Shown one piece after another: positions 1-17,181 of a stretch of 20,795 nt of DNA. The notes under the pieces are model-generated. The model made no database searches, had not been told where the DNA came from, and worked only from the letters and a program-made list of their open reading frames with translations. Location: positions 1 to 20,795 of the IMG/VR virus record IMGVR_UViG_3300006108_000074; one strand, given 5' to 3'. Source of the DNA: a virus. The position numbers and the translations under genes are program-made. Each line of letters opens with the position of its first letter. Position 1 is the first letter of the stretch.

Positions 1-615
1 AAGACGACCTGCAAAGTCACGGGTAAGTTCTATGTTGGGATGCACTCAACAGACAACTTAGACGACGGTTATCTTGGTAGCGGTAAAATCTTGGGATATT
101 CTCGTCAAAAGTATGGTGACGAGAACCACGTAAGAGAAATTCTCGAGTTTCTTCCATCGCGTGAGGCGCTCAAAGCCCGCGAAAAAGAGATCGTTAATGA
201 AGAACTTCTTTCCGATCCTCTAAACGTCAATCTGAAATACGGCGGTGAGGGTGGCTGGGATCACAAACCGGGCGTCAAAATCCATCTTCAACAGTTTGAC
301 AGAAACAAAAGATCAGCAAACGCAGCGCTTACAAGAGCGAAGCGTAGTGAAAATCCCGAATATGCTCAAGCCCTTTTGGCAAAACTGTCTGCCTCTCACA
401 AAGGACAGCAAGCGTGGCTAGGCAAAAAGCATACGGATCAGACAAAGTCAAAAATGTCTGCGAGTATGAAGGGTAGGTATGACAAAGAAAATAACCCCCA
501 GTTTGGAAAATCCTGGGTGACAAATGGCATCAATGCCGTCATTGTGAAGAGAGAAGAGCTTCCTGAATATCTCAGCACTGGGTATGTTCTCGGAAGAAGA
601 GTTACGCGGGTGTAG
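1..615 (+). CDS. GIY-YIG homing endonuclease, 5' end outside window
   Basis: The reading frame is open from base 1, so the start codon lies upstream of the window. The first visible residues are the YVG half of the GIY-YIG catalytic core (YVGMHST), followed by the family blocks KYGDENH, REKEIVNEEL and NLKYGGEGG. The C-terminal half carries NUMOD3-like lysine-rich motifs (SASHKGQQAWLGKKH and SMKGRY) typical of DNA-binding tails of phage free-standing endonucleases. It is a close paralogue of the gene at 4454, with long stretches of near-identity such as GGWDHKPGV. It probably cuts a related phage lacking the gene and spreads by repair. It sits directly upstream of a decayed tRNA, in keeping with homing into a tRNA region. 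Confidence 0.93.
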   Translation, partial: KTTCKVTGKFYVGMHSTDNLDDGYLGSGKILGYSRQKYGDENHVREILEFLPSREALKAREKEIVNEELLSDPLNVNLKYGGEGGWDHKPGVKIHLQQFDRNKRSANAALTRAKRSENPEYAQALLAKLSASHKGQQAWLGKKHTDQTKSKMSASMKGRYDKENNPQFGKSWVTNGINAVIVKREELPEYLSTGYVLGRRVTRV

Positions 616-673
616 CTAAAAAGGAATAGCAACACAAAACCGGAGGTGTCACGGAAAGACCGACACGGATTAA

Positions 674-775
674 ATGGGTGAAGGGAATTTATGAACTCGC
701 GACACGCGGTTTTAACCGGAACTCAGCCCACTATGGGTGCCGTGGATGTGGGTTCGAGTCCCACCACCCGCGCCA
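674..775 (+). tRNA. Degenerate Leu-type tRNA (probable pseudo-tRNA)
   Basis: The 3' half is a perfect tRNA end: T-stem GTGGG/CCCAC with loop TTCGAGT (748-764), acceptor strand CACCCGC, discriminator G and encoded CCA at 773-775, five bases before tRNA-Thr. The best 5' acceptor strand is ATGGGTG (674-680), pairing at six of seven positions with an A-C mismatch at the end. The middle contains GACACGCGG and TTTTAA, reminiscent of tRNA-Leu(UAA), but the anticodon stem can form only about three pairs and the D-arm is not recognisable. A CCCA/TGGG hairpin could be a class II variable arm. It could be a decayed Leu tRNA or the 3' part of an interrupted one. Confidence 0.45.
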
Positions 776-780
776 TTTAC

Positions 781-856
781 GCCGGTTTAGCTCAGTTGGT
801 AGAGCGCCAGTTTTGTAAACTGGATGTCGTGGGTTCGATCCCTGCAACCGGCACCA
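781..856 (+). tRNA. tRNA-Thr(UGU)
   Basis: A complete cloverleaf: acceptor GCCGGTT/AACCGGC, D-arm GCTC/GAGC, anticodon stem CCAGT/ACTGG with loop TTTGTAA (anticodon TGT), T-loop TTCGATC, discriminator A and encoded CCA. Confidence 0.97.
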
Positions 857-884: not shown

Positions 885-1127
885 ATAGATTTTTATGAAC
901 GCTGCGCCGCTCTTTTGGGAGTCGAGTATGAATGTACTCCGTTCCCTTATTCGAAGCGCACACGATGGAATAACAGAGGGCCAGGTTCGGGAAGGTATCC
1001 CGGCTACGGTCTGATCAGAAAGTTTGGAACGGACATCCATGTTAACCTACGGCATCCAGTGCTTCACCGCGCTGTGTACAAGACCGAGGAAGAGGTGTTC
1101 AAGTTCCTTGAGAATATGAGGACGTAG
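885..1127 (+). CDS. Hypothetical phage protein with apparent ATA start
   Basis: Eighty codons with protein-like composition, rich in aromatic and basic residues (GRYPGYGLIRKFG, ALLGVEYECTPFPY). I do not recognise the family. No ATG exists at the 5' end of this frame. A good Shine-Dalgarno AAGGGA (873-878) stands six bases before an ATA codon at 885, exactly where an ATG would be expected. The next standard start is TTG at 915, which has no ribosome binding site and would remove ten residues. The gene may start at ATA, use the TTG, or be inactivated by an ATG-to-ATA change. Its last ten bases overlap the 5' end of the long tRNA at 1118. Confidence 0.55.
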   Translation: MDFYERCAALLGVEYECTPFPYSKRTRWNNRGPGSGRYPGYGLIRKFGTDIHVNLRHPVLHRAVYKTEEEVFKFLENMRT

Positions 1128-1241
1128 TTCAACGGCAGAACAGCCGCCACAACATCGTCTACGGTCACTTGTTGGCATCGCTAACCGAATGTGGATGGTT
1201 ATCCCAAGCAGCGAGTGTGGGTTCGATTCCCACCGTCCTCA
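1118..1241 (+). tRNA. tRNA-Gly(CCC)-like with 53-nt insertion at the anticodon loop
   Basis: Both ends are canonical: acceptor GAGGACG/CGTCCTC perfect over seven pairs, D-arm GTTC/GAAC with GG in the loop, T-arm GTGGG/CCCAC with loop TTCGATT, discriminator A, no encoded CCA. Between them are 74 bases where about 21 are expected. Assigning GCCGC (1143-1147) and GCAGC (1208-1212) as the anticodon stem (four of five pairs) leaves a normal seven-base loop ATCCCAA (anticodon CCC, U33 present) at 1201-1207, preceded by an extra 53 bases at 1148-1200. D-arm and CCCAAGC resemble bacterial tRNA-Gly(CCC). The insertion has internal helices (CCACA/TGTGG; GTTGGC/GCTAAC). Whether it is removed is unknown. 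Confidence 0.6.
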
Positions 1242-1412: not shown

Positions 1413-1417
1413 AGTTT

Positions 1418-1528
1418 GCTAAACCGTTGATGTTGGTTATCGGTAAAACTTCAATCCTCAAAATTGAACCAGGCGGTTCAAACCCGCCAACCACGAAAGT
1501 GGCAACTCGACATCGTCCTTCGTTTAGC
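1418..1528 (+). ncRNA. Structured RNA element with T-arm-like hairpin (element F)
   Basis: This stretch between tRNA-Leu(CAA) and an HNH gene folds by eye into a multi-helix structure. The closing helix is GCTAAAC/GTTTAGC (1418-1424 with 1522-1528), followed by GATGT/ACATC (1429-1433 with 1510-1514) and TGGTT/AACCA. Internal hairpins are TTCAAT/ATTGAA, a tRNA T-arm look-alike GGCGG-TTCAAAC-CCGCC (1472-1488), and CCAC-GAAA-GTGG with a GNRA tetraloop (1491-1502). It lacks a D-arm and cannot form a normal tRNA. Its core at 1429-1441 is almost identical to 2943-2955. It could be a remodelled tRNA or a separate phage RNA class. Confidence 0.55.
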
Positions 1529-1540
1529 ATTCCTTTGATT

Positions 1541-2850: not shown

Positions 2851-2894
2851 GCAAAAAGTTGCATTTTCTCTGTGTACTTTTCAGGAGAATGTGG

Positions 2895-2907
2895 TATAAT
2901 AAATAGG
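2895..2907 (+). promoter_or_regulatory. Overlapping extended -10 and late promoter
   Basis: TGG followed by TATAAT (2895-2900) forms an extended -10 box, and AATAAATA (2898-2905) is one base from the T4 late consensus. Either would start RNA at about 2907-2911, the first bases of the inverted-repeat leader that follows. No good -35 box is present. Confidence 0.65.
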
Positions 2908-2910
2908 AAT

Positions 2911-3064
2911 GCTGGATACGCTTCGTAATACTCCAACCGGAGGACGTTGGTTATCTTCACTTATGGAAAATGAACCGAGGACGTTCGATTCGTCCGTGCC
3001 CTTTTGGTAAAGGTGGGCAATGCCCGACTCCATTTTCGTTGAAGTATTACCAAGCGTATCCAGT
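2911..3064 (+). ncRNA. Large structured 5' leader closed by a 20-bp helix (element G)
   Basis: CTGGATACGCTT (2912-2923) pairs with AAGCGTATCCAG (3052-3063), and after one C-C mismatch GTAATACT (2925-2932) pairs with AGTATTAC (3043-3050), giving 20 pairs. Inside are CCAAC/GTTGG, a T-arm-like hairpin GGACG-TTCGATT-CGTCC (2979-2995), a CCTTT/AAAGG hairpin and GGGC-AAT-GCCC. Bases 2943-2955 match the core of element F at 12 of 13 positions. The transcript starts at the helix and leads into the gene at 3085, whose SD lies in a small CTCC/GGAG hairpin (3066-3078). A riboswitch-like, stability or packaging role is possible; none is shown. Confidence 0.75.
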
Positions 3065-3084
3065 ACTCCATATAGGAGGTCAAC

Positions 3085-3591
3085 ATGAAAATTCTGCTTC
3101 AGGTTATCAACAGAGATAACCAGCAGGTCTACAAGCGAGTTGATCTTGCTGATGATCTGTTTAGCTACGCGTGCGAACGTTTGGCTACTGAGCCACATAT
3201 CCGTTCTGCTCGTGTCTATCGAGAGGTGTTCTACACCCACAAGTCTTTCGCAGAGGATTTTGAAATCCCTGAGGAAGGTGTGGATCTTCTAGAACTTCTC
3301 AAGGGGACGAAGATTACCGAGGGCGACTTCGACATCTTCTCCAAGCAGAATCTTCCTAGGTTGTATGAGAACGCATCTGCCGCGAACTTCTACGACAGCC
3401 ATACTCGAAATGATCGACTGCGTTCGGTGATCCGGACTCTCGATCAAGTCGGTGAGAATGGACAGCTGCATGTTTCAAACCCGCAGCAGTTCAAAGAGGA
3501 TTTGCTCTCGATTCTGAGCGAGGTCTTCGATGAGGACTTCGAACAAACAGATGTTCGAGAGCTTGCTAAGGATCGTGAAAACACGGACTAG
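3085..3591 (+). CDS. Hypothetical 168-aa phage protein with structured leader
   Basis: A strong SD (AGGAGG, 3074-3079) precedes the ATG. The protein is acidic, without signal peptide or membrane segment, and mainly helical. It opens with a beta strand (MKILLQVI) and ends in a charged tail (FDEDFEQTDVRELAKDRENTD). I see no catalytic motif and do not recognise a family. The unusual feature is its roughly 170-base leader with a 20-bp helix, suggesting that its expression is controlled after transcription starts. The next gene downstream is an HNH endonuclease with its own late promoter. Confidence 0.8.
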   Translation: MKILLQVINRDNQQVYKRVDLADDLFSYACERLATEPHIRSARVYREVFYTHKSFAEDFEIPEEGVDLLELLKGTKITEGDFDIFSKQNLPRLYENASAANFYDSHTRNDRLRSVIRTLDQVGENGQLHVSNPQQFKEDLLSILSEVFDEDFEQTDVRELAKDRENTD

Positions 3592-10314: not shown

Positions 10315-11859
10315 ATGAGCCAATATCTCGTAAAGACGCAGGACATCACTAAGGTCACTGCAGCCAAAAATCCTCAGGAAGTTCACCCAGGTTTCTATCT
10401 GGTTGAAGCTGACGATCTCGCCGCCCTTACCGCACAGGTTGAGAGCATTGAACCAGCTCATGACGAAGTGAAGCTTACCTTCCAAGTCGCGCCTGTTGCA
10501 GGCTCTGCAGATTTTGTCGGTCTTCCAGCAGATCATGAATGGGCTCGCCTCCGTGTTGTTTCGCGCGTTCACCCACTTCAGACCGTTTTCAATCGCGCTG
10601 ATTGCACGTACGTTCGCACTCCTGAACTGTTCATCGTAGATACCGGCGTCAACTTCTCCCACGATGAGTTTGTTGGAGTCGCTTCTACGAATGACTTCTA
10701 CAAGGTACCAGCGCTTTCATCCTTCCGTGACGATCTAGGCCACGGCACCGCGGTTGCTTCTCTTGCATGCGGTAAGAACATCGGCGTCGAGCAGTCTGTC
10801 TCCCTGCAAAACGTAAAGATCGCTGGCGATGGTCACACGACTACCAACCTCGAACTTGGTAACGCTCTGTTCTCCATTCTGAAGCACCATGCTGATACGC
10901 CAACCGTTCCTAAGGTTGTCAACTGCTCGTGGAACGTTCCTAAGAGCGCCTTCTTCGACGACATCTTCAAGGCGATGCTTTCTGCCGGTATCTGCGTTGT
11001 AGCAGCAGCTGGTAACACCGGTATCGACGTTACCGACACTACCCCAGCCGGTCTTGTCGACGTCATCACAGTTGCAGCATCTGACAAGGACGACGTTTCT
11101 GCAGGCTTCAACAACTTCTCGAAGCCAGACATGGCTATCACGACCAACGCTGGTCTTACGGTAGACATCTTTGCTCCAGGTGTTGACATCGTCGTTGCAA
11201 AGTATGATGGCAATGACCACTACTTCTCTGGTTCAGGTACGTCTTTCGCCGCTCCTCTGGTTACTGGCGCTGCATGCATCATCATGTCGATGCTGGAATC
11301 GGTATTTGGTTCAGATGTCCGTCAGATCATGATCGACACTGCTACTAAGGGCGCCCTTCTTCTCGACGCTTCTAAGTTCACTGCCGAACAGAACAACCTT
11401 CTGTTCCTTCTGAACACCGATGAAGCTGCACAGTTCAAGGATCTGACCTTCTTCGTCGACACGCTGTCGGTAACCAACCCAACGATCTCGTCTGACGTCA
11501 ACCGCGTTATGGCATGGAAGAACTACGAATCTGTATCTGGCGAATCTCCAGCATTCAGCATCGTTTATCCAGATGACGCCACGAAGGCAGCCCTTGAAAA
11601 CAATATCACGATCAGCAATGACGGTACATTCGTCATTACGAACCCAACGCTGACATGGGCAGCTGACGAAAATCTACGACTCATGGACTTTAAGGTAGCA
11701 GTGACGTTCAAGAATGTCAGCTACACTTCTCCAAAGATCGTATTCTTCGTTGTTAACCCAGCTCAGAAGGCTGACGTCAGTGGTGAAATCTCGTCTGCAC
11801 TCGAAAGCATGAACGCGCAGACCCTCTTCGCAGCATGGGCAAGCAAAACCCTAAAGTAA
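10315..11859 (+). CDS. Subtilisin-like serine protease (S8)
   Basis: A 514-residue protein with the complete S8 catalytic set: Asp109 in VDTG, His143 in GHGTAVAS, oxyanion Asn234 in AAGN and Ser310 in GTSFAAPLVTGA. Residues 1-100 form an N-terminal domain resembling an inhibitory propeptide but without a signal peptide, so it likely acts inside the cell or in the virion. Residues about 370-514 add a beta-rich domain (FKDLTFFVDTLSVTNPTI) unlike the protease core. SD TGGAG precedes the ATG. It leads a cluster with two oxygenases and a PP-loop ATPase, the next gene starting five bases after its stop. A protein-processing role in that cluster is inferred. Confidence 0.95.
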   Translation: MSQYLVKTQDITKVTAAKNPQEVHPGFYLVEADDLAALTAQVESIEPAHDEVKLTFQVAPVAGSADFVGLPADHEWARLRVVSRVHPLQTVFNRADCTYVRTPELFIVDTGVNFSHDEFVGVASTNDFYKVPALSSFRDDLGHGTAVASLACGKNIGVEQSVSLQNVKIAGDGHTTTNLELGNALFSILKHHADTPTVPKVVNCSWNVPKSAFFDDIFKAMLSAGICVVAAAGNTGIDVTDTTPAGLVDVITVAASDKDDVSAGFNNFSKPDMAITTNAGLTVDIFAPGVDIVVAKYDGNDHYFSGSGTSFAAPLVTGAACIIMSMLESVFGSDVRQIMIDTATKGALLLDASKFTAEQNNLLFLLNTDEAAQFKDLTFFVDTLSVTNPTISSDVNRVMAWKNYESVSGESPAFSIVYPDDATKAALENNITISNDGTFVITNPTLTWAADENLRLMDFKVAVTFKNVSYTSPKIVFFVVNPAQKADVSGEISSALESMNAQTLFAAWASKTLK

Positions 11860-12631: not shown

Positions 12632-13582
12632 ATGTCTAGTCCAGTTCCATTCACCCGCGTGTTCAACGAAGGATGGATGAACTATGACCTGGTGAGCCGT
12701 GAGATCATTGAGTACACGATCAATCTTACTGCAGAACAAATCGAAAGCATTGAGCGCGATCGCTTCGCAGAATATCGTCGTAAGGCTGTTCATGACAGCC
12801 TGCTATTCGTTGGTGACAATCCAGCGGTTATGCTGAGCGGTGGCATTGACAGCCAGGTAATGCTCTATTCTTTCATCGAGACAGGGATCAAGGTATCCCC
12901 TGTTATCGTTGATTTTGACGGCAAGAACACCCACGACACTGACGTGGCGCTAGAATACTGCAAGCTGCTAAACGTTGATCCTACGGTTATCGAGCTAAAC
13001 GTCAAGTGGTTCCTTAATCGTGAAGGAGTGCAGTATGGCTTGAAGCACGGACTTCGTAGCCCACAGTTCACCTGTCATGCGAAGGCATGCGAGCTTCTTC
13101 AAGCTAAAGGATATACCGGTGCTGTGTTTGGCGGCAACTCGCTCTACCTAATCAAAAACCATTTGGACGTGAGCGAGGGTTGGATCTTTGGCGCATCCGC
13201 AGCCCAGCTTTTGGATCTGCCAACCTTTAGCCAATCGATCAACTGGCCGATTATCGGCAGCTTCTGTTCATGGTCTTGGCAAGCGTGCATGGCAATGTCG
13301 GCTCTGTCAGAAGAAAATGTAGACGATGCTGAAACCCGCTATCAGCAAAAGATTCAAGCGTACAGATCATTCGGTATTCCGATCATTCCACAAAAGCAGA
13401 AGTATACCGGATTCGAAAACATCAAGAATGAAATAGACGCCATGGACAAGGCTGGCTATTTTGAGTTGAAGTTTAGAGCTCCTCTTTACGCTAAGACACC
13501 AGACCAGTACAAGCCAAGACTTATTCTTACCGATGCGCAGCAACAAGCGCTTGACAACTTATCAGCGAGGCTAAAGACATGA
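12632..13582 (+). CDS. PP-loop ATPase (asparagine-synthetase-like adenylating domain)
   Basis: A 316-residue protein with the PP-loop motif VMLSGGIDSQVML near residue 67, the ATP-binding signature of N-type ATP pyrophosphatases. The following strand (VSPVIVDFDGKNTHDTDVA) fits the family, and a C-terminal helical region follows. It has no glutaminase domain, so it is not a full AsnB. It may adenylate a carboxyl or carbonyl group for amide or thio transfer. Its stop overlaps the start of the next oxygenase gene (ATGA), implying linked function. SD GAGAGG precedes the ATG. The substrate is unknown. Confidence 0.85.
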   Translation: MSSPVPFTRVFNEGWMNYDLVSREIIEYTINLTAEQIESIERDRFAEYRRKAVHDSLLFVGDNPAVMLSGGIDSQVMLYSFIETGIKVSPVIVDFDGKNTHDTDVALEYCKLLNVDPTVIELNVKWFLNREGVQYGLKHGLRSPQFTCHAKACELLQAKGYTGAVFGGNSLYLIKNHLDVSEGWIFGASAAQLLDLPTFSQSINWPIIGSFCSWSWQACMAMSALSEENVDDAETRYQQKIQAYRSFGIPIIPQKQKYTGFENIKNEIDAMDKAGYFELKFRAPLYAKTPDQYKPRLILTDAQQQALDNLSARLKT

Positions 13583-14293: not shown

Positions 14294-14932
14294 ATGAAGG
14301 ACCCAATGGACTCCAAAAACTCAATGCACGGGTACATCCGCATGCTGCAGCAGAAGCTGCAGGAAAAGGACCGGACCATCAACGAGCTGATGCAGCAGGT
14401 CAGTGACCTTCAAAAGCGCGTCTACACGGATGATATGACGGGACTGCTCACTCGCGAAGCCTTCAAGGACCGAGTGCGCCAGATGCTTTTGGAGACCACG
14501 CGTAACGGTGGACACACGTTCGTTGTGTTCCTCGACGTAGATAACTTCAAGGGCATCAATGACGCTCATGGCCACGATGGCGGCGACTTTGCTCTTATCA
14601 CGATTGCAACCAGACTTGGAAATGCCATGCGTCGTACCGACGTTGTGGGTCGTTGGTCTGGAGACGAGTTCGTCGCGGCCTTCCACATGACTCCGGAAGA
14701 GTTTGCCACTCAAGACCACCGCATTGTTTTTGAACGCATGCAGAAGGCAATCTCCAAGCCTACCTCGTTCAAGGACAAGGCGATGAACCTCACATGCAGC
14801 ATGGGTGCGGTCACCTATTCTGGCTGCGATGAGATTGACCCTGAAGAGCTGATCAACCAGGCTGACGAAGCGATGTACGCATCGAAGCGGGCCGGCAAGG
14901 ATCGCATTTCGGTAGCTGTCTATCATGATTGA
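14294..14932 (+). CDS. Phage-encoded GGDEF diguanylate cyclase
   Basis: A 212-residue protein: an N-terminal coiled coil (about 15-42), then one GGDEF domain. The active-site signature is SGDEF (122-126), with the metal and substrate motifs FLDVDNFKGINDAHGHDGGDF (79-99, conserved Asp, Asn and GHxxGD) and DDMTGLLTR before them. The product-inhibition site RxxD (Arg113, Asp116) stands the usual five residues upstream. It should make c-di-GMP from two GTP, with dimerisation by the coiled coil. It has an early-type sigma70 promoter. An ATG at 14306 behind AAGGA is an alternative start. It overlaps the QueC-like gene by eight bases. It may shift host motility, biofilm or defence signalling. Confidence 0.93.
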   Translation: MKDPMDSKNSMHGYIRMLQQKLQEKDRTINELMQQVSDLQKRVYTDDMTGLLTREAFKDRVRQMLLETTRNGGHTFVVFLDVDNFKGINDAHGHDGGDFALITIATRLGNAMRRTDVVGRWSGDEFVAAFHMTPEEFATQDHRIVFERMQKAISKPTSFKDKAMNLTCSMGAVTYSGCDEIDPEELINQADEAMYASKRAGKDRISVAVYHD

Positions 14933-15515
14933 GAACCTTCTGGATTTTCCTGAACAGCGAGTCGGTGTTTTCGTTTCGGCGGGCACCGACTCAACCATTC
15001 TGCTGTACCTCATTCTCAAGGAGAACATTACAGCGAAGAAGGACATCACCCTCTTCTGTATTCCTAAGCACGATGGCGCGGCAGATTACGTTCATGGCTG
15101 CGTGAACGCGGTCTGTGAGAAGTTGGGAGTTGCGGTTCCTCCGCTGTTCTTCGTTGGAAATCCAGACTGGGATCATACGTTCATCGTCCAGCGGGCATGG
15201 GGTGAGGTGGCAGATCGCAAGATCGTCGACAAGATTTTTCTAGCCGACAACGTTCCTCCACCCCTCAATCTTCCTGGCCTTCAGCCACGCCGTGGTCGCT
15301 CTACCCACCCGATGGCGGTCCAGCCGTTCTTCGACATGACGAAGGACCAGATCATCAAGCTCTATTTTGATTATGGGATAGAGGACATCCTCAAGCTGAC
15401 GCACACCTGCACGGAAACCCGAGTGGGTGCCTGCTGGAAATGCTGGCAGTGTAGTGAACGAATGTGGGCATTTGCGGAACTCGGGCTTCAAGACCCTCTC
15501 CGCCCAATCACCTGA
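14925..15515 (+). CDS. QueC-like PP-loop protein
   Basis: A 196-residue PP-loop ATPase with SAGTDST (18-24) near the N-terminus and a C-terminal zinc-type cysteine set, Cys162, Cys170, Cys173 and Cys176 (HTCTETRVGACWKCWQCSERMWAF region), in the C-x7-C-x2-C-x2-C layout of QueC. QueC makes preQ0 for queuosine and phage 7-deazaguanine DNA modification. The middle part is short and divergent, so substrate identity is unsure; it may activate a different carboxylate. No QueD, QueE, FolE or transglycosylase gene is in this window. It overlaps the diguanylate cyclase gene by eight bases. Confidence 0.78.
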   Translation: MIENLLDFPEQRVGVFVSAGTDSTILLYLILKENITAKKDITLFCIPKHDGAADYVHGCVNAVCEKLGVAVPPLFFVGNPDWDHTFIVQRAWGEVADRKIVDKIFLADNVPPPLNLPGLQPRRGRSTHPMAVQPFFDMTKDQIIKLYFDYGIEDILKLTHTCTETRVGACWKCWQCSERMWAFAELGLQDPLRPIT

Positions 15516-15584: not shown

Positions 15585-16022
15585 ATGTCACTTATCGATC
15601 AAGTCAAGGCAGCGCAGATCGCTGCCCGTAAGTCGCGGAACTCTGCCGCGGCAGCGACCCTCACGACCCTAATCGGCGAGGCCGAAGCGGTGGGTAAGAA
15701 CGCTGGACGAGCGCCAACTGACGAAGAAGTCGTTGCGACCGTCAAGAAGTTCATCAAGAACATCGATGCGACTTTGGCCGTTCTGATCCCTGTTTCGGTT
15801 GCCTATGAGGCCTATGCGGCTGAAAAGGCGCTTCTGGAAACCTTCCAACCCAAGCAGATGAGCGAAGAAGAGCTCACCGCCGTGATCAAGACCATCGCAG
15901 CAGAAGTTGGAGCAACTTCTCCGAAGGACATGGGTAAAGTCATGGCCGCTCTAAAGGCAGCGCATGACGGCCAATACGATGGCAAGCTGGCATCTCAGCT
16001 GGTTAAAGCCGCTCTGGCCTGA
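15585..16022 (+). CDS. yqeY: YqeY/GatB-tail-like protein
   Basis: A 145-residue all-helical protein. The pattern SLIDQVKAAQIAARKSRNSAAAATLTTLIGEAE at the start, FQPKQMSEEELTAVIKTIAAEVGATSPKDMGKVM near 84-117 and the C-terminal DGKLASQLVKAAL match the YqeY family, whose fold is the tRNA-binding tail domain of the GatB amidotransferase subunit. The cellular role of YqeY is not settled; a link to tRNA is attractive in a genome carrying so many tRNAs, but is inference. SD AAAGG precedes the ATG. The stop overlaps a strong hairpin. Confidence 0.85.
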   Translation: MSLIDQVKAAQIAARKSRNSAAAATLTTLIGEAEAVGKNAGRAPTDEEVVATVKKFIKNIDATLAVLIPVSVAYEAYAAEKALLETFQPKQMSEEELTAVIKTIAAEVGATSPKDMGKVMAALKAAHDGQYDGKLASQLVKAALA

Positions 16023-16079: not shown

Positions 16080-16116
16080 ACTGTTTCAACCGTTTGAACT
16101 TTATAGGAGTTTGAAA

Positions 16117-17181
16117 ATGAAGAACTATATCGGCATCTCCCGCGATCATTCCGGCTCAATGAGCTCGATCGCCCGCGCAGCAGCTCGCGATTACAACGAC
16201 AATATCGCAGCCATCCGCGAAGCTTCCCTCTCTGAAAATCAAGACACTATCGTTTCTGTGGTCGAATGCGGCTACGGTGACACCGCCTCTGTGCGCCGGG
16301 CGATCGTCAACTCGAACGTCACCGCGCTGCAGCCTATCGCTGAAGGCGCCTACACTGCTCGTGGCCGCGGAACTCCGCTCTTCGACAGCGTCGGCGAACT
16401 GATCGAAATGTTCGAAAGCGTCCCCGACGCAGACGACATCAATGTTTCGTTCCTCGTCATGGCTGTTACCGATGGCCAGGAAAATGCTTCTCGCAAGTAC
16501 TCTGCCGCTACCATCGCCGCAAAAATCCGACAGCTTCAAGCGACTGACCGTTGGACCTTCGTGTTCCGCGTTCCTCGTGGAGATGCTCGCCGGCTGATGC
16601 AGCTGGGCATTCCTGAAGGCAACATCCTCGAGTGGGAACAGACCCAACGCGGTGTTGAAGTTGCTTCTGCCCGCACCCGTGAAGCCTTCACCGGCTACAT
16701 GTCGGCTCGTTCTTCTGGTGTCAAGTCCACTCAGAAGTTCTACACCGATCTGTCGAACGTCACGAGCAAGGACGTTGCAGCGGTTCTGGAAGACGTCTCC
16801 TCAGATGTTCTGATCTGGCCTGTCAGCGTTGCGGACCACGATGCAGAAATCCGTCCCTTCATCGAAGCTCGCCTTGGCGGTAAGCCAATGCTCAAGGGCG
16901 CCGGCTTCTACCAGCTGACGAAGACTGAGCCTACCGTCCAGGATCACAAGAAGATTCTCATCCGTGACAAGACCACGCAGGCCGTCTACTACGGTTCTGC
17001 AGCTCGTCAGATGCTGGGTCTGCCTACCTACGGTAACGTTCGCCTGGCTCCAGGCAACCACGGCAACTTCGACATCTTCATTCAATCCACCTCGGTCAAC
17101 CGCAAGCTGGCTGCCGGCACTTCCCTGGTCTACTGGGCAAACGTCGGAACCCGCTACAAGGAGGGTCCGTCCAGCCGCTGA
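16117..17181 (+). CDS. VWA-domain protein with intact MIDAS
   Basis: A 354-residue protein whose N-terminal 170 residues form a von Willebrand A domain with a full metal-ion adhesion site: Asp10, Ser12 and Ser14 (DHSGS), Thr86 (GTPLFDS) and Asp119 (VTDGQEN). Such domains bind partner proteins through the metal; TerY-like bacterial proteins are relatives. The C-terminal half (from about 230, VLIWPVSVADHDAEIRPF) is a separate conserved-looking domain of unknown role. The ATG at 16117 with SD AGGAG is chosen over an upstream in-frame TTG. The stop overlaps the start of a GIY-YIG gene (ATGA). Confidence 0.9.
   Translation: MKNYIGISRDHSGSMSSIARAAARDYNDNIAAIREASLSENQDTIVSVVECGYGDTASVRRAIVNSNVTALQPIAEGAYTARGRGTPLFDSVGELIEMFESVPDADDINVSFLVMAVTDGQENASRKYSAATIAAKIRQLQATDRWTFVFRVPRGDARRLMQLGIPEGNILEWEQTQRGVEVASARTREAFTGYMSARSSGVKSTQKFYTDLSNVTSKDVAAVLEDVSSDVLIWPVSVADHDAEIRPFIEARLGGKPMLKGAGFYQLTKTEPTVQDHKKILIRDKTTQAVYYGSAARQMLGLPTYGNVRLAPGNHGNFDIFIQSTSVNRKLAAGTSLVYWANVGTRYKEGPSSR

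Follow-up and report, generated by a model that had tools for sequence, protein, structure and literature searches.

A probable Y RNA gene in the tRNA cluster of a large phage and its relatives beside phage Ro60 genes

Introduction

What kind of RNA would be made from a phage DNA segment whose two ends pair with each other and whose interior holds a copy of the tRNA T-arm? Such a segment lies at positions 2911-3064 of a virus fragment of 20,795 bases (IMG/VR virus record IMGVR_UViG_3300006108_000074, positions 1-20,795; hereafter the window), which corresponds to a tRNA cluster where several homing endonucleases of the GIY-YIG and HNH types are encoded. The original prediction had read the segment as the large structured 5' leader of the gene that follows. 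Its layout, with paired ends and a T-arm mimic, led us to consider a Y RNA, that is, a partner of Ro60. Y RNAs accompany this RNA-quality-control protein in animals and some bacteria. The comparison of the segment with its relatives in other phages indicates that it is very probably a stand-alone non-coding Y RNA gene located among clustered tRNA genes in a large phage.

Results

A long helix conserved in phage relatives

A repeat search identified a 32-nt inverted repeat (2906-2937/3038-3069, 88% complementary, spacing 100 nt), the longest of the window among those with arms less than 400 nt apart. The predicted fold of 2909-3084 reached -68.7 kcal/mol, compared to -44.7 +/- 4.15 for shuffled sequences (z = -5.78), and none of the 200 shuffles was as good. 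The large structured RNA with a long closing helix was thus recovered, although not at the size first given, 20 bp with a single mismatch: the arms 2911-2937/3038-3064 (the lower stem, S1) pair over 27 positions, interrupted by one C.C and one C.A mismatch. The T-arm geometry that had been noticed inside the helix is exact (GGACG-TTCGATT-CGTCC). The individual elements are listed in Table 1.

Besides one nearly identical contig (L004), we found a copy with unrelated flanks (L005), located between a relative of a 96-aa gene and, further downstream, a tRNA-Ser gene. Its 27-nt arms differ in sequence from those of the window and are again exactly 100 nt apart. The core common to both copies consists of GGTTATCT, GTTCGATTC and CCGA-N-NCC. 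A search with this core pattern retrieved five further contigs, Rhodococcus phage Trina among them, and a second, looser pattern retrieved ten more, six of which were clear copies by model score, while three (L221, L223 and L227) resembled chance matches. The strict pattern had no match in bacterial and archaeal genomes, and a blastn search of the RNA against phage records gave only short chance matches.

The alignment of the first seven copies yielded S1, an upper stem S2 (RUUGG/CCGAY plus GG/CC) and the T-arm; of the 28 predicted pairs, 18 showed two-sided changes. Among 24 distinct relatives, 90.2% of the cells were paired, compared to 62.2% when partners were shuffled and 28-46% when they were slid, and the covariation score was 0.673 against 0.209 in the control; with 62 relatives, the paired fraction was 88.1% against 56.9%. 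These pairing figures lean towards the structure because the alignment was fitted to it, but the controls nonetheless differ greatly. S2 pairs were retained in 100% of the cells, with two-sided changes at some pairs, and the T-arm mimic was also 100% paired, with two-sided changes at four of its five pairs. The P5 hairpin recurs in relatives, its pairing being kept across ten different stem sequences (stems picked by eye). The compensatory changes anticipated for the arms were thus found by covariance-model comparison, and L005 and the other relatives keep the helix with different arm sequences; homologues lacking complementary arms would have spoken against it. A local D-arm-like hairpin (GGAU...AUCU) was considered in place of S2 and rejected, as the two-sided changes belong to S2; by eye, this hairpin is disrupted in the window and in another copy (L012).

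The relatives share a common order of motifs, RGYCGA...GGUUAUC on the 5' side and ...AYRUYC or ACUUGCCC on the 3' side, the same layout as in animal Y RNAs. In the window RNA itself, the ends form the conserved lower stem with a bulged C, followed by the upper stem. CCG is conserved, and the strand facing it has CAUG or CUUG forms in many relatives. The family was followed in one form only.

Association with phage Ro60

TROVE (PF05731), the domain of Ro60, was present in all four records longer than 100 kb that were first found by the RNA pattern, as full-length proteins with the vWA motif DxSGSM. By comparison, one of ten contigs longer than 100 kb reached by other routes (nine via a homing endonuclease, one via the 96-aa gene) encodes TROVE.

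We then used a covariance model, R1, built from the seven copies. Matches of at least 25 bits were considered strong, because R1 matches in TROVE-negative records reach 21.6 bits, those among them that were read being devoid of the motifs. When 50 TROVE-positive contigs longer than 50 kb were tested, Trina being the only one that had contributed to the model, 18 had a match of at least 25 bits, compared to none of 21 TROVE-negative records, including T4, KVP40 and XacN1 (Fisher p = 0.0007). Noticeable clustering was observed near ro60: 18 of the 26 strong matches were located within 2 kb of the gene (1.33 expected, Poisson p = 7.5e-15), the relatives found by R1 lying just upstream of it. All the strong matches near ro60 were on the same strand as the gene, a strand that local tRNA clusters also tend to share. 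Among the contigs of the second pattern, six had a strong R1 match; five of these are TROVE-positive and the sixth is a 42-kb fragment (L228). A longer list of matches includes weaker ones chosen partly by position and is unfit for statistics. In Trina, the gene annotated as 'Ro RNA binding protein' is preceded by the RNA at a distance of 743 bp, in a stretch without annotation.

Some relatives could also be connected to known families in Rfam, whose profiles are independent of R1. L119, found by R1 235 bp upstream of a phage ro60, scored 38.1 bits with the nematode sbRNA model RF01656 (cut-off 38) and, in second place, 19.1 bits with Y_RNA (RF00019); L129 obtained 35.8 bits with RF01656. The sbRNAs are homologous to Y RNAs (PMC4726728). 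Other relatives matched YrlA (RF02553) along the entire model with 42-45 bits, which falls short of the cut-off (69). Weak matches to YrlA of around 30 bits were set aside, since tandem tRNAs also produce them (window 724-839).

Several observations weigh against the Y RNA interpretation. The Ro60 gene was not found in the 20.8-kb window fragment, nor did a profile search detect TROVE in any of the four short RNA-found records, the window being one of them. Strong R1 matches were lacking in 32 of the 50 TROVE-positive contigs, and in L009, L010 and L014 the RNA is 7-57 kb away from ro60. An Rfam search of the window RNA gave no match, that to YrlA being absent at E <= 5 (gathering cut-off 69 bits). 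Its unconstrained minimum free energy fold pairs the core otherwise (-61.9 against -61.4 kcal/mol for the consensus structure), a cost of just 0.5 kcal/mol. Finally, the Ro60 site of vertebrate Y RNAs consists of a 7-bp helix with a bulged cytidine and a 3-nt bulge opposite (PMC4726728); the window RNA has the helix and CCG, but the facing strand, AUUUUC, has diverged. Taken together with these points, the comparison of S1, the CCG loop, S2, GGUUAUC, the T-arm/acceptor-like module and the occurrence in Ro60-encoding phages still argues for the identification as a Y RNA, which we hold with high confidence.

Table 1. Elements of the predicted Y RNA and related features of the window.
Feature	Position	Strand	Basis
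Candidate promoter: TGTACT, 16 nt, TATAAT with TG extension (TGGTATAAT)	2873..2900	+	read by eye
S1 (lower stem), 5' arm	2911..2937	+	fold, inverted repeat, covariation
Internal loop CGGA, containing the bulged C of the CCG motif (putative Ro60 site)	2938..2941	+	CCG kept in relatives
S2, 5' strand GG-AC-GUUGG	2942..2950	+	covariation among relatives
GGUUAUC motif, near-invariant, common to animal Y RNAs and nematode sbRNAs	2949..2955	+	
Weak hairpin UUCA...UGAA (in relatives UUUU...AAAA)	2956..2974	+	read by eye from sequences
T-arm mimic GGACG-UUCGAUU-CGUCC	2979..2995	+	covariation among relatives
P5 hairpin UGCCC...GGGCA, directly 3' of the T-arm, acceptor-like as in YrlA	2997..3019	+	
S2, 3' strand CCGAC-U-CC	3024..3031	+	covariation among relatives
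AUUUUC bulge facing CCG (canonical ACUUG region, diverged in the window RNA)	3032..3037	+	
S1 (lower stem), 3' arm	3038..3064	+	fold, inverted repeat, covariation
Candidate second Y RNA: S1 GCUAAAC/GUUUAGC, GGUUAUC, T-arm 1472-1488	1413..1533	+	R1, 30.7 bits
tRNA (ARAGORN with introns: tRNA-Gly ccc) whose 53-nt anticodon-loop insert reads as a capped, circularly permuted Y stem	1118..1241	+	by eye

Transcription signals and alternative explanations

The candidate promoter overlaps a T4-late-like TAATAAATA. Its TATAAT, extended by TG (2892-2900), is separated by about 10 nt from the start of the paired region downstream. A simple sigma-70 scan did not list this TATAAT because there is no good -35 box at 16-18 nt. 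By eye, L009 and L010 carry TTTACT-17-TAGAAT/TACAAT at the corresponding place upstream. Transcription probably starts at about 2906-2911, in agreement with the start at the first base of the helix proposed in the original prediction.

This prediction had also placed the Shine-Dalgarno (SD) sequence of the following gene in a separate small hairpin, and we recovered it just beyond the helix (ACTCC-ATATA-GGAGG). The gene in question encodes 168 aa (3085-3591) and begins 21 nt past the helix, with no terminator-like site found in between. These features are those expected of a cis-regulatory leader, in which the helix would stabilise the mRNA and the small hairpin would control access to the SD. 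The distribution of the RNA nevertheless makes such a role improbable: relatives of the 168-aa gene and of its 70-aa neighbour were found solely in the near-identical contig, whereas about 12 other contigs hold close copies of the RNA in differing contexts, beside ro60 or between tRNAs. In L010, moreover, a terminator-like hairpin with a T-run directly follows the RNA and a promoter-like sequence precedes it (both by eye). The leader function was therefore not retained, and read-through into the 168-aa gene is possible in the window phage.

The tRNA-like features could alternatively indicate a decoy, or a degenerate tRNA or tmRNA remnant, unconnected with Ro60, for instance a bait for anticodon nucleases or RNase P. 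The T-arm with its consensus loop, the acceptor-like hairpin and the location within a tRNA cluster are all in line with this possibility, which we consider slightly less probable still than the leader: S2 and GGUUAUC are kept even in related matches without the T-arm, and the RNA is associated with ro60. A bait activity would in any case be compatible with Y RNA identity, the two not being exclusive. As for a DNA-level inverted repeat, such as a replication or recombination site or the end of a mobile element, the length of the repeat and the abundance of homing endonucleases in the region could suggest it, but it is extremely unlikely, since the arm sequences turn over fully while their complementarity stays, the unpaired RNA motifs are conserved on one strand, and the arms have no further copy anywhere in the window.

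Other Y-type RNAs and tRNA-Y chimeras

The segment 2911-3064 is apparently not the only Y-type RNA of the window. The tRNA-SeC(tca) called by ARAGORN at 1425-1496, inside the candidate second Y RNA, is very probably a miscall. A similar Y RNA-like case, called tRNA-Ile(aat), was observed in L005 (5504-5625).

The third case is a tRNA with an insert in its anticodon loop (1118-1241), which follows the permuted order CAUCGUCUAC-GGUCACUU-GUUGGC-AUC-GCUAAC-CGAAU-GUGGAUG-GUUAUC. Equivalent anticodon-loop inserts with a GCAA cap are present in L009 (925-1050) and L010 (4318-4444, minus strand), and candidate tRNA-Y stem inserts were noticed about 250-330 bp upstream of ro60 in L090 (550-673) and L063 (603-757). 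Judged from its order of elements, the tRNA-Y stem chimera reads as the unpermuted topology of YrlA. There is perhaps an even chance that these phages run a Ro60-tRNA ribonucleoprotein (RNP) system in which several Y RNA designs would be interchangeable within a single genome: elongated ones with a truncated tRNA elbow (2911-3064), YrlA-like ones, and complete tRNAs bearing a capped Ro60 stem in the anticodon loop, the tRNA-borne design being that of window 1118-1241, L009 and L010, and possibly of L090 and L063. If true, such chimeras would bear on the interconversion of Y RNAs and tRNAs and on the origin of tRNA mimicry by Y RNAs. A tRNA-Pro(ggg)-like gene of the window (606-772) has a 95-nt insert at position 32/33, without a GGUUAUC motif.

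Other candidates and neighbouring genes

Up to four Y RNA candidates are located upstream of the Ro60 gene in Trina (NC_042040: 81037-81159, 83610-83715, 83727-83856 and 83947-84053). The first slightly overlaps a hypothetical coding sequence, and the three others fall within a gap without annotation, the last of them being a weak candidate (16.6 bits). Predicted stand-alone Y RNAs were also observed in unannotated gaps of Agrobacterium phage Atu_ph07 (NC_042013, 467016-467091, minus strand, L193; 76 nt, flanked by a TTGACA-type promoter and a terminator, by eye) and Sinorhizobium phage Phosso (PV764938, 19150-19294, plus strand, L191; accompanied by sequences that resemble a promoter and a terminator). 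In both of these TROVE-encoding phages, the predicted Y RNA is near a peptidyl-tRNA hydrolase gene.

The ro60-containing contig G004 shares a gene with the window (a 404-aa protein, 45% identity over the C-terminal part). A vWA-like protein of the window (16111-17181) was examined as a possible piece of Ro60 and rejected, having no Pfam match; this 356-aa protein has a vWA/MIDAS-like motif, DHSGSM, near its start and is a candidate free-standing vWA protein. The place of ro60 in RHph_TM30, between two tRNA-Leu genes, was likewise dropped for the window, where other open reading frames occupy it. The window also encodes two PP-loop (QueC-like) proteins (12632-13582 and 14925-15515) near a YqeY-like protein (15585-16022) in a tRNA-rich region, and a subtilase-family (S8) protease (10315-11859).

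Discussion

If 2911-3064 is indeed a Y RNA gene, the Y stem (the S1/S2 region) of its product would bind the ring-shaped Ro60 protein of the phage, and the T-arm with the P5 hairpin could mimic the tRNA elbow, either bringing in or blocking a tRNA-binding protein or enzyme. The resulting RNP might act in RNA quality control, in the decay of structured RNAs, or in protecting and repairing the phage tRNA pool in the course of infection, while the long S1 may aid processing (by RNase III) or stability. The literature connects the TROVE proteins of jumbo phages with RNA repair (PMC7824862), which makes it plausible that the RNP takes part in RNA decay, in the repair of tRNAs or in counter-defence.

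The likely RNA partners of phage Ro60 are either unannotated or called odd tRNAs in the phage records that we examined. A family model that finds phage Y RNAs makes the role of the phage Ro60 RNP testable in cultured phages such as Trina, Atu_ph07 and Phosso.

Comparison with known systems

Y RNAs of bacteria and phages were reportedly described by Chen et al. in 2014. As phage YrlA is also mentioned in a jumbo-phage paper (PMC7765460), the phage Y RNA can be regarded as a kind already known.

The resemblance to tmRNA and permuted tRNAs is limited to the T-arm stem-loop (the L011 copy scored 8.5 bits with beta_tmRNA). The window RNA has no acceptor ends and matches no full tRNA or tmRNA model, neither ARAGORN nor Rfam reporting a tRNA or tmRNA at 2911-3064. 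The large phages that carry the RNA resemble those in which phage Ro60 is known (Rhodococcus phage Trina, Streptomyces phages) by their full-length TROVE and vWA partner protein, which are not visible in the window fragment. With vertebrate Y RNAs (RF00019) and nematode sbRNAs (RF01656), the window RNA has in common the CCG bulge, S2 and GGUUAUC in the same order, although it matches neither model itself. Animal Y RNAs and sbRNAs are not known to carry a tRNA-like module.

YrlA (RF02553) offers such a module: in both, a Ro60-type stem is formed from the two ends, and the T-arm is directly followed by an acceptor-like hairpin (window 2979-2995 and 2997-3019). Two R1 matches, L125 1501-1652 and L123 1316-1422, fit RF02553 across the full model. 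In contrast to YrlA, the window RNA lacks a D-arm, P5 and S2 being separated by just four bases (AUGC). An additional segment separates its GGUUAUC from the T-arm, its S1 measures 27 nt, it has no match in Rfam, and it lies in a tRNA cluster, where it was not seen adjoining ro60. On these sequence features, we classify the window RNA as a Y-type RNA whose S1 is elongated, whose tRNA module is truncated and whose putative Ro60 site has diverged, that is, as a new variant distinct from YrlA.
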